From the NCBI GenBank assembly GCA_001790855.1, contig MGDH01000002.1:1-12217 (forward strand): a DNA stretch of 12,217 bases, written 5' to 3'. The stretch is from Candidatus Schekmanbacteria bacterium RIFCSPLOWO2_02_FULL_38_14. Lineage in GTDB: Bacteria > Schekmanbacteria > GWA2-38-11. A program made the translations under genes and the position numbers. A model generated the notes under the pieces. That model saw only the letters and a list, made by a program, of their open reading frames with translations. It had not been told where the DNA came from and did no database searches. This document shows positions 4,929-6,951 of the stretch, one piece after another (within the stretch, counting starts at the first letter, position 1; each line of letters opens with the position of its first letter).

Positions 4929-5000
4929 TGAAATCTTATCTTTTTATATTATATAATATTTATTCTTTGCAACCTTAAAATACTTCAAAATTCATTTGAC
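4929..5000 (+). repeat. Direct repeat copy A (upstream of fluoride operon promoter)
   Basis: This stretch matches 6877-6951 along its whole length with small indels. Both run from TGAAAT through a TATATTATA-TAATATTT tract and TTTGCAAYCTTAAAATACTT (4966-4985 here, differing at one base) to the TTGAC of a -35 box. The shared, very AT-rich block could act as an UP element or hold a common regulator site. Confidence 0.8.
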
Positions 5001-5024
5001 TTCTATTTATACTTTTTTTATATT
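4996..5024 (+). promoter_or_regulatory. Sigma-70-type promoter of the fluoride operon
   Basis: TTGACT (4996-5001) and TATATT (5019-5024) are separated by 17 bases. Transcription would start at about 5030-5032, exactly at the 5' edge of the riboswitch aptamer. AT-rich DNA lies immediately upstream. Confidence 0.8.
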
Positions 5025-5030
5025 TAAAAA

Positions 5031-5080
5031 AGGCGATGGGGTTCGCCATTAAGCATCCATAAGGGATTAATGACCCCTAC
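5031..5080 (+). promoter_or_regulatory. Fluoride riboswitch (crcB motif) aptamer
   Basis: The conserved opening GGCGATGGGGTTCGCC (5032-5047) forms a stem of GGCG with CGCC around an eight-base loop. A second short stem pairs ATCC (5055-5058) with GGAT (5064-5067). The conserved TAATGACCCCTACTG segment follows from 5068. GGGG in the first loop (5038-5041) can pair with CCCC (5074-5077), the pseudoknot known from the fluoride aptamer structure. Fluoride binding in this class stabilises the pseudoknot and prevents the terminator that reuses the same CCCC, so expression turns on when fluoride rises. The call is by recognition of the consensus; an Infernal hit to the Rfam fluoride riboswitch model would settle it. 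Confidence 0.93.
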
Positions 5081-5116
5081 TGAAAAATATAAATTTCGGT
5101 AGGGGTTTTTATTTTT
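5073..5116 (+). terminator. Riboswitch-controlled intrinsic terminator
   Basis: ACCCCTAC (5073-5080) pairs perfectly with GTAGGGGT (5099-5106). The stem continues through a T-G wobble and GAAA (5082-5085) with TTTC (5094-5097) to an eight-base AT loop. The tract TTTTTATTTTT (5106-5116) follows. The 5' arm contains the CCCC needed for the aptamer pseudoknot, so aptamer folding and termination are mutually exclusive, the standard expression-platform design for an on-switch. Confidence 0.92.
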
Positions 5117-5158
5117 AATCACCTGCCGGAGTTGAGAAAAAGAGAGGATAAAAATAAA

Positions 5159-6295
5159 ATGGAAAACCAATGGATTCAGGCAGCGCTATGGATGGGACTT
5201 GCTTTCGGCGCAACACTTCTATCCTTAAGGATAGCAATATCAATTGCTCTTCTTGAAATTATGGTTGGTGTATTGGGAGGGAGTTTTCTTCCGCTTCAGA
5301 GAACAGAATGGGTGAACTTCCTTGCAGGGTTTGGTAGTATACTCCTCACATTTCTTGCCGGTGCTGAGGTTGATCCCGTTGTACTGAAGAAAAGGTTTAA
5401 AGAAAGTATGGCTATAGGGATATTATCATTTCTTGCACCATTTCTTGGAGTGATTGCATATGCTTATTATATTGCCGGATGGGGACTTGCTCAGGCTCAG
5501 ATAGCAGGCATTTCACTTTCAACGACATCTGTTGCCGTAGTCTATGCCGTGATGATTGAGACAGGTTATAACGAAACAGAGCTTGGGAAACTTATACTCG
5601 CAGCCTGTTTCATAACTGATCTTGGAACTGTCCTTGCACTTGGCATTCTCTTTGCAAATTATGACCGGTATATGATTTTGTTCATTATAGTTACTGTAAT
5701 TATACTTTTGTTACTTCCTAAGTTTACACCATGGTTTTTCAAAAAGGTCGGGAGCCGTGTGAGTGAACCTGAAACAAAGTTTATATTCTTTTTGCTCTTT
5801 GGGCTTGGAGGTATTTCTATGATGGCAAAGAGTGAGGCGGTGCTTCCAGCATATCTTGTGGGAATGGTGCTTGCGCCTTTTTTTCTTGAGAATAAGACAT
5901 TGAGTCACAGGATGCGTGTTACTGCATTTACAATGCTGACGCCATTCTATTTTATCAAGGCAGGTTCACTTGTCAAACTATCTGCAATGTGGAACAGTGC
6001 AAATTTAATTTTTATATTTCTTCTGATAAAGATGGGAACAAAATTTACAGGTGTGTGGCCCCCAACCAAGATATTCAGCTTTGGTAAAAAGGAAGGGATG
6101 TATACAACTTTACTGATGTCAACAGGTCTTACATTTGATACAATTTCAGCCCTTTTTGGACTAACTAATAAGATTATAAATCGGGAGCAGTATACAATCC
6201 TTGTCACTGCTGTTATACTTTCAGCAGTAGTGCCAACTTTAATTGCACAAAAATGGTTCAAACCTGAGCTTAAGAAGGAGACTAATGATGTTTAA
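5159..6295 (+). CDS. Cation:proton antiporter (CPA / Na_H_Exchanger family), fluoride-riboswitch controlled
   Basis: Encodes 378 aa, almost entirely hydrophobic with about 11-13 membrane segments, the size and pattern of a minimal CPA-family exchanger without a C-terminal TrkA-N domain. Family signatures are FLAGAEVDP at the end of an early helix, ISLSTTSVAVVYA (S121-T122-T123-S124, the unwound-helix region) and AACFITDLGTVLALG, where the ion-binding pair is T153-D154 instead of the N-D or D-D of well-studied members. The acidic residue itself is kept, so proton exchange should be possible. The substrate cation cannot be assigned. ATG 5159 is preferred, with GAGAGG (5142-5147) 11 bases upstream; TTG 5132 would add nine charged residues before the first helix. 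The 5' leader carries the riboswitch, and usp overlaps the 3' end by 8 bases, so both should be induced by fluoride. Antiporters are among the gene classes reported downstream of crcB-motif RNAs. Confidence 0.92.
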   Translation: MENQWIQAALWMGLAFGATLLSLRIAISIALLEIMVGVLGGSFLPLQRTEWVNFLAGFGSILLTFLAGAEVDPVVLKKRFKESMAIGILSFLAPFLGVIAYAYYIAGWGLAQAQIAGISLSTTSVAVVYAVMIETGYNETELGKLILAACFITDLGTVLALGILFANYDRYMILFIIVTVIILLLLPKFTPWFFKKVGSRVSEPETKFIFFLLFGLGGISMMAKSEAVLPAYLVGMVLAPFFLENKTLSHRMRVTAFTMLTPFYFIKAGSLVKLSAMWNSANLIFIFLLIKMGTKFTGVWPPTKIFSFGKKEGMYTTLLMSTGLTFDTISALFGLTNKIINREQYTILVTAVILSAVVPTLIAQKWFKPELKKETNDV

Positions 6296-6710
6296 GAAAA
6301 TATTAATTGCCAATGATGGTTCTGACGGTGCAAAGCATGCACTTCAGGTTGCCATTGACCTTTCAAAAAAATATAATGCAGATCTCCATAGTATCTCAGT
6401 TGAAGAGGGAGTACCGCACTATGCTGCGACTATTGGAGAGGTAGAAGAGTTTAAGCAGGAAGCAAACAATTATTTTAGAAAGGTCAATGAAGAAGCCGTT
6501 GAGATGGCAAAAAAAGAAGGTGTCAAGCTTCACACAAAGGTTCTGCCGGGTCATGAAGTAGAGACGGTTATTAATTATGCTAAAGATGGAAAATTCGATC
6601 TTCTTGTGATTGGCTTTATGGGCCATTCAAAAATCTTTGGAAGAGTATGGGGTTCAACTTCCCAGAACATAACAAAGCTTTCTCCCTGCACAGTGATTGT
6701 TGTGAAATAA
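6288..6710 (+). CDS. Universal stress protein (UspA family), ATP-binding type
   Basis: Encodes 140 aa, the standard single-domain Usp length. It begins MFKKILIANDGSDGAKHA, with the adenine-pocket aspartate D10, and ends VIVVK as is typical of the last beta strand. The nucleotide motif G-2x-G-9x-G-S is exact: G109, G112, G122, S123, so it should bind ATP rather than belong to the non-binding UspA subgroup. ATG 6288 overlaps the antiporter by 8 bases and has AAGGAG (6275-6280) 7 bases upstream; ATG 6285 is also possible but closer to the site. The overlap implies coupled translation and common control by the fluoride riboswitch. A regulatory role on the antiporter or a general stress role are both open. 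Usp genes are listed among known crcB-motif targets. Confidence 0.94.
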   Translation: MFKKILIANDGSDGAKHALQVAIDLSKKYNADLHSISVEEGVPHYAATIGEVEEFKQEANNYFRKVNEEAVEMAKKEGVKLHTKVLPGHEVETVINYAKDGKFDLLVIGFMGHSKIFGRVWGSTSQNITKLSPCTVIVVK

Positions 6711-6740
6711 TTCGAAACGGCGATGGAATTTGCTTGCTCA

Positions 6741-6876: not shown

Positions 6877-6951
6877 TGAAATATTTTCTTTTTTATATTA
6901 TAATAATATTTGTTATTTGCAATCTTAAAATACTTTTTTCATTTTGTTGAC
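6877..6951 (+). repeat. Direct repeat copy B (upstream of secA promoter)
   Basis: Diverged copy of 4929-5000. The best conserved core, TTTGCAATCTTAAAATACTT (6916-6935), differs from copy A at one base, and both copies end in TTGAC of a -35 box. The two copies are in the same orientation and enclose the riboswitch operon and the crcB remnant. Confidence 0.8.

Follow-up and report, generated by a model that had tools for sequence, protein, structure and literature searches.

A riboswitch-linked antiporter–universal stress protein pair as a candidate fluoride defence in bacteria without detectable CrcB or CLC exporters

How might a bacterium defend itself against fluoride if it carries a fluoride riboswitch and neither of the known fluoride exporters? 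The question is raised by Candidatus Schekmanbacteria bacterium RIFCSPLOWO2_02_FULL_38_14, from which we analysed a 12,217-base stretch of DNA that is an entire contig (hereafter the window); the genome is 2.68 Mb in size and 99.4% complete. An earlier note on this DNA had described a two-gene unit, an antiporter and a universal stress protein (Usp), behind a fluoride riboswitch and with no CrcB or CLC-F in the operon. The latter statement can be extended, as whole-genome homology searches gave no match to CrcB/Fluc (PF02537), nor to a CLC of any kind (PF00654), anywhere in the window's genome; the same searches found CrcB in 10 and CLC in 12 of 14 control genomes. The features of the unit are as follows.

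4996–5024, forward strand: sigma-70-type promoter-like site TTGACT-17-TATATT, 10 of 12 positions matching, assigned by consensus only
5023–5086, forward strand: fluoride riboswitch aptamer (crcB motif), RF01734, 50.3 bits, E 1.1e-11
5072–5107, forward strand: predicted intrinsic terminator acting as expression platform, 14 pairs and then a T run, z −5.9
5162–6295, forward strand: antiporter, PF00999, NapA-like fold (CPA2-like), 377 aa, start ATG at 5162, E 1e-38
6288–6710, forward strand: universal stress protein, PF00582, with the ATP-binding motif G2XG9XGS, E 1e-24
6719–6733, forward strand: GGCGATGGAATTTGC, putatively what is left of a second fluoride riboswitch, differing from the family core at 2 positions

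The Rfam covariance model identifies the aptamer with significance: the match exceeds the gathering score of 34, covers model positions 1–64 of 64, and comes with both the pseudoknot and an expression platform whose folding excludes it. The promoter-like site would place the transcription start near 5030, at the aptamer, as had been proposed. The CCCC at 5074–5077 has two alternative partners, the GGGG of the loop (forming the pseudoknot) or the terminator arm, and the terminator folds far better than shuffled sequences. In a joint fold of 5030–5116, made with a program that does not score pseudoknots, the CCCC sits in the terminator stem, which fits the OFF state required of an ON switch. In the pseudoknot, which joins the P1 loop to the 3′ segment, all four pairs are standard in 31 of 31 parsed aptamers of the family, and they covary (GGGG/CCCC, GGAG/CTCC, GAGG/CCTC); a matching 3′ terminator arm ahead of a T run is usually present. 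The dual use of the CCCC claimed in the earlier note is thereby upheld. Without fluoride the terminator would form, whilst with fluoride the CCCC would be held in the pseudoknot and transcription would proceed into the antiporter and Usp genes. Elsewhere in the genome, on contig C18, a second RF01734 match of 22.8 bits was taken as chance because it lies below the cut-off and inside a coding sequence.

The antiporter, present as a single copy in the genome, scores 133.4 bits against PF00999 (Na_H_Exchanger, CPA superfamily; gathering cut-off 26.2) and matches PF00999 only. Its score against the CPA2 model TIGR00932 (106.2 bits) is under the curated cut-off of 238.3; judged by sequence, the protein is related to CPA2 and is not classed under TIGR00932. 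The predicted structure (pLDDT 85.6) resembles NapA most, with Z 41.4 across 366 residues, and KefC is also among its structural matches (Z 29.0). Asp156, Asp157 and Lys305 of NapA correspond to T152 (or N), D153 and K294 of the antiporter. Neither D153 nor K294 varies among 30 aligned antiporter sequences, and the Asp-Asp pair typical of electrogenic NapA/NhaA-type antiporters is absent, with Thr/Asn-Asp in all 30. One Asp at the ion site goes with electroneutral exchange.

The Usp gene overlaps the antiporter gene by 8 nt, and its product scores 87.9 bits against PF00582 (cut-off 24); the motif G2XG9XG(S/T) can be read directly as G-FM-G-HSKIFGRVW-GS. The two-gene unit with an ATP-binding Usp thus stands as described. 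A Usp follows the antiporter in 29 of 29 readable Nitrospirota loci and in three Schekmanbacteria-type loci, that of the window included. So constant a partner, carrying an ATP-binding motif, suggests a regulatory subunit. A literature search for bacterial cases of a Usp and an antiporter in fluoride response found none, its results being mostly plant papers.

Among the genomes compared, the nearest relative is Candidatus Schekmanbacteria bacterium GWA2_38_11, whose antiporter is 89% identical and which has the riboswitch–antiporter unit twice. Near one of these units lies a CrcB-like fragment of 88 codons (locus L015, 7641–7898, reverse strand), which may be a Fluc gene in decay or result from a contig error. 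In the remaining two genomes of the order we found neither riboswitch nor antiporter; the survey of the window's own phylum comprised four genomes, too few for statistics. All 10 loci of close relatives in Schekmanbacteria and Nitrospirota (antiporter 77–89% identical) have the riboswitch upstream. The antiporter is up to 84% identical to its Nitrospirota counterparts, as against at best 67% for full-length SecA, which suggests horizontal spread; the cassette was probably spread partly by horizontal transfer. Linkage of riboswitch and antiporter is kept across the two phyla, to about 44–50% antiporter identity. This bears on whether an accident of history placed the riboswitch over an antiporter for general salt stress, with the association doing nothing against fluoride. 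Genes of the PF00999 and Usp families are indeed common stress genes, but such an accident is very improbable given the conserved linkage and given that enolase, a known fluoride target, is found near a further riboswitch in some relatives' loci.

The unit belongs to a longer cassette. Behind the Usp gene, many relatives carry a second fluoride riboswitch, and after it come a dynamin-like GTPase (PF00350) and then a HAD, MFS (PF07690) or enolase gene. The place of this riboswitch is occupied in the window by the site at 6719–6733, for which Rfam gave nothing even with E relaxed to 5, and which is kept only as a remnant on account of its position and its match to the core (by chance, a window would hold on average 0.07 core matches with 3 or fewer mismatches). 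Because relatives have an intact riboswitch at the equivalent place, where the window has only GGCGATGGAATTTGC followed by secA, the unit looks, from its sequence, like a truncated form of the longer cassette. The dynamin-like gene stands behind the second riboswitch at L006 (1752–3646), L008 (5552–7450), L009 (2476–4356), L013 (5581–7506) and L118, and a search of open-licence PMC articles found no paper that joins dynamin to the fluoride riboswitch. Two repeats were also seen in the window. A 33-nt direct repeat (91% identical; 4953–4985 and 6903–6935) brackets the riboswitch–antiporter–Usp unit, one copy lying ahead of the unit and the other ahead of secA, with the likeness extending towards each promoter-like TTGAC; the repeat may be a trace of the unit having been inserted or duplicated upstream of secA. 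At the extreme end of the contig, a perfect 96-nt tandem duplication (1–192) is possibly an assembly artefact.

We surveyed 295 Nitrospirota genomes, drafts of untold completeness, and found the antiporter (threshold E up to 1e-50) in 58, CrcB in 133, CLC in 98 and the riboswitch in 123. A riboswitch lies no more than 300 nt upstream on the same strand of 48 of the 55 tabulated antiporter genes, and several of the other seven stand behind an ABC protein gene that itself follows the riboswitch. The strict scan found no riboswitch in five of the 58 antiporter genomes; for one of these (G138) a permissive scan was positive. The survey of gene order that the earlier note had called for thus returned the same arrangement, with the Usp in every readable locus: the antiporter subfamily is mostly riboswitch-linked, and the window's unit is no one-off.

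In these genomes the antiporter family shows avoidance of the exporter families: 8 have both, 50 the antiporter only, 169 an exporter (CrcB/CLC) only and 68 neither (odds ratio 0.064, p 7e-16). The pattern holds within the riboswitch-bearing genomes (both, 8; antiporter only, 45; exporter only, 46; neither, 24; p 1.7e-8), and no CrcB or CLC was found in any of the 16 genomes whose antiporter is at least 58% identical. In the few genomes where antiporter and exporter occur together the genes are sometimes adjacent, and in one (G078) each has a riboswitch of its own.

Other arrangements were seen in exporter-less genomes. In many larger Nitrospirota genomes of this kind, the riboswitch precedes a membrane protein of about 565 aa with an ABC ATPase domain (PF00005; L108, L109, L111, L112, L115, L116, L117, L119, L125, and also L030–L032), in some cases with the antiporter and Usp directly downstream. 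At L113, L114, L122, L124 and L126 it is followed by a different PF00999 antiporter of about 393 aa, another branch of antiporters that fills the same role, and then by an MFS gene. At L121 and L123 it stands ahead of membrane-bound hydrogenase/formate hydrogenlyase-type genes, a known target class.

Since related genomes are not independent, a SecA tree was built. With this single marker gene, 140 of the surveyed draft genomes and Pagel's dependent and independent models, dependent evolution of antiporter and exporter was favoured (LR 37.1, p 1.7e-7); LR did not exceed 11.9 in 28 simulations under independence and was 36.6–41.1 on four bootstrap trees. As a control, the riboswitch without this antiporter was only weakly linked to exporter absence (LR 8.2, p 0.09). 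Pagel's test is known to be weak where changes are nested in few clades; the antiporter-positive, exporter-negative tips fall in several separate places of the tree. These results suggest that the antiporter–Usp pair stands in for the missing CrcB/CLC exporters, although a shared life style, and not replacement, could lie behind the avoidance.

Three readings of the pair's function have to be weighed against this pattern. The one we favour, by a modest degree of confidence, is that antiporter and Usp take the place of Fluc or CLC-F and protect the cell from fluoride by cation/H+ exchange, with no exporter involved. A second would confine the antiporter to auxiliary pH homeostasis, extruding H+ by means of the Na+ gradient after HF has entered; fluoride itself would either not be removed or leave through some unrecognised exporter, and ecology would account for the avoidance of CrcB/CLC. 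This is the published view of riboswitch-linked Na+/H+ antiporters (PMC11139923); moreover, a CLC-F and an NhaP-type antiporter share one fluoride-riboswitch operon in C. difficile (PMC11477304) and the antiporter adjoins CrcB in some Nitrospirota, so that an antiporter can evidently be an add-on. The auxiliary role does not, however, predict exporter avoidance, which holds both on the tree and within riboswitch-bearing genomes, and we regard it as possible but doubtful.

Under the third reading the pair would itself export fluoride, by F−/H+ or F−/cation exchange, and so add a third dedicated class to Fluc and CLC-F. It would have arisen from the fold of cation/proton antiporters, with the Usp as regulatory subunit, and would replace Fluc/CLC-F in Schekmanbacteria and many Nitrospirota. 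The riboswitch linkage, the lack of either known exporter in 50 of the 58 antiporter genomes and in that of the window, the correlated evolution with exporter absence and the strongly conserved antiporter core are all consistent with it. The fold and ion site are nevertheless those of a cation/proton antiporter, no anion site was identified and, to our knowledge, no PF00999 protein carries fluoride; this reading appears unlikely, more so than an auxiliary role.

For defence by cation/H+ exchange, we infer the fluoride response itself, the ions transported, the direction of transport and the function of the Usp. The likeliest chemistry would be electroneutral exchange of K+ or Na+ for H+. Fluoride enters as HF and is trapped in proportion to the transmembrane pH difference, so that such exchange could lower the fluoride load without an exporter: H+ moving in against K+ or Na+ moving out would diminish the pH difference, and with it fluoride accumulation, whilst sparing the membrane potential. 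The logic would resemble that of KefC against electrophiles. KefC acts by acidifying the cytosol and has a soluble regulatory part; here the Usp, with its ATP-binding motif, would be a dedicated cytosolic regulator of the antiporter. The direction of exchange may be the reverse, since H+ inflow driven by the proton motive force would add to acid stress. A link between fluoride stress and cytoplasmic pH has been described, and acclimated yeast tolerates lower pH (PMC11139923). The module would be the main fluoride defence in the window's lineage and its relatives. The phylogeny-corrected avoidance of CrcB/CLC lends support to the earlier suggestion that the antiporter is itself what handles fluoride stress.

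The analysis names a candidate for fluoride survival in riboswitch-bearing bacteria without Fluc or CLC-F, namely a single antiporter subfamily that has a fixed Usp partner and, where present, predicts that exporters are absent. The cassette additionally points to further uncharacterised fluoride-response genes, among them the dynamin-like GTPase, the MFS protein and the ABC protein.

Early gene lists for fluoride riboswitches are in Weinberg 2010 (PMC2864571); operons that join the riboswitch to Na+/H+ antiporters are known from that paper and from Baker 2012, the latter as summarised in PMC11139923. Na+/H+ antiporters are the next-most common gene class after exporters according to that 2024 review; the pairing of riboswitch and antiporter is therefore not itself new, and the earlier note, right that antiporters are known targets, understated them as a minority. 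What is new relative to the literature examined is the fixed antiporter–Usp module, the fact that it is riboswitch-linked in two phyla, and the phylogeny-corrected pattern of replacement with Fluc/CLC. The window shares aptamer class, terminator-type expression platform and antiporter target with known riboswitch–Na+/H+ antiporter operons, and differs in its fixed antiporter–Usp pair, a genome without CrcB/CLC and evolutionary avoidance of exporters. The fluoride operon of E. cloacae FRM (ppaC-uspA-eno-gpmA-crcB; PMC5533749) likewise has a riboswitch-driven uspA, and an enolase as in some relatives of the window, but contains crcB and no antiporter. C. difficile CD0656-7 (PMC11477304) is also a two-gene riboswitch operon with a cation/H+ antiporter; there the exporter is CLC-type, the antiporter NhaP-type, and no Usp is present. 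BenE-I of P. putida was considered as a parallel and set aside, as its authors report an indirect effect on tolerance and not fluoride transport (PMC13104614). NapA of Thermus thermophilus (4bwz/5bz2) has the same fold, is similar in sequence (E 1e-11, 20% identity) and has its Lys305 kept as K294, whereas its ion site is Asp-Asp and that of the window's antiporter Thr/Asn-Asp. The K+/H+ exchanger KefC (8bxg) shares both the fold and the single Asp at the site; the window's antiporter differs in having neither RCK domain nor glutathione control and, instead, a separate Usp.
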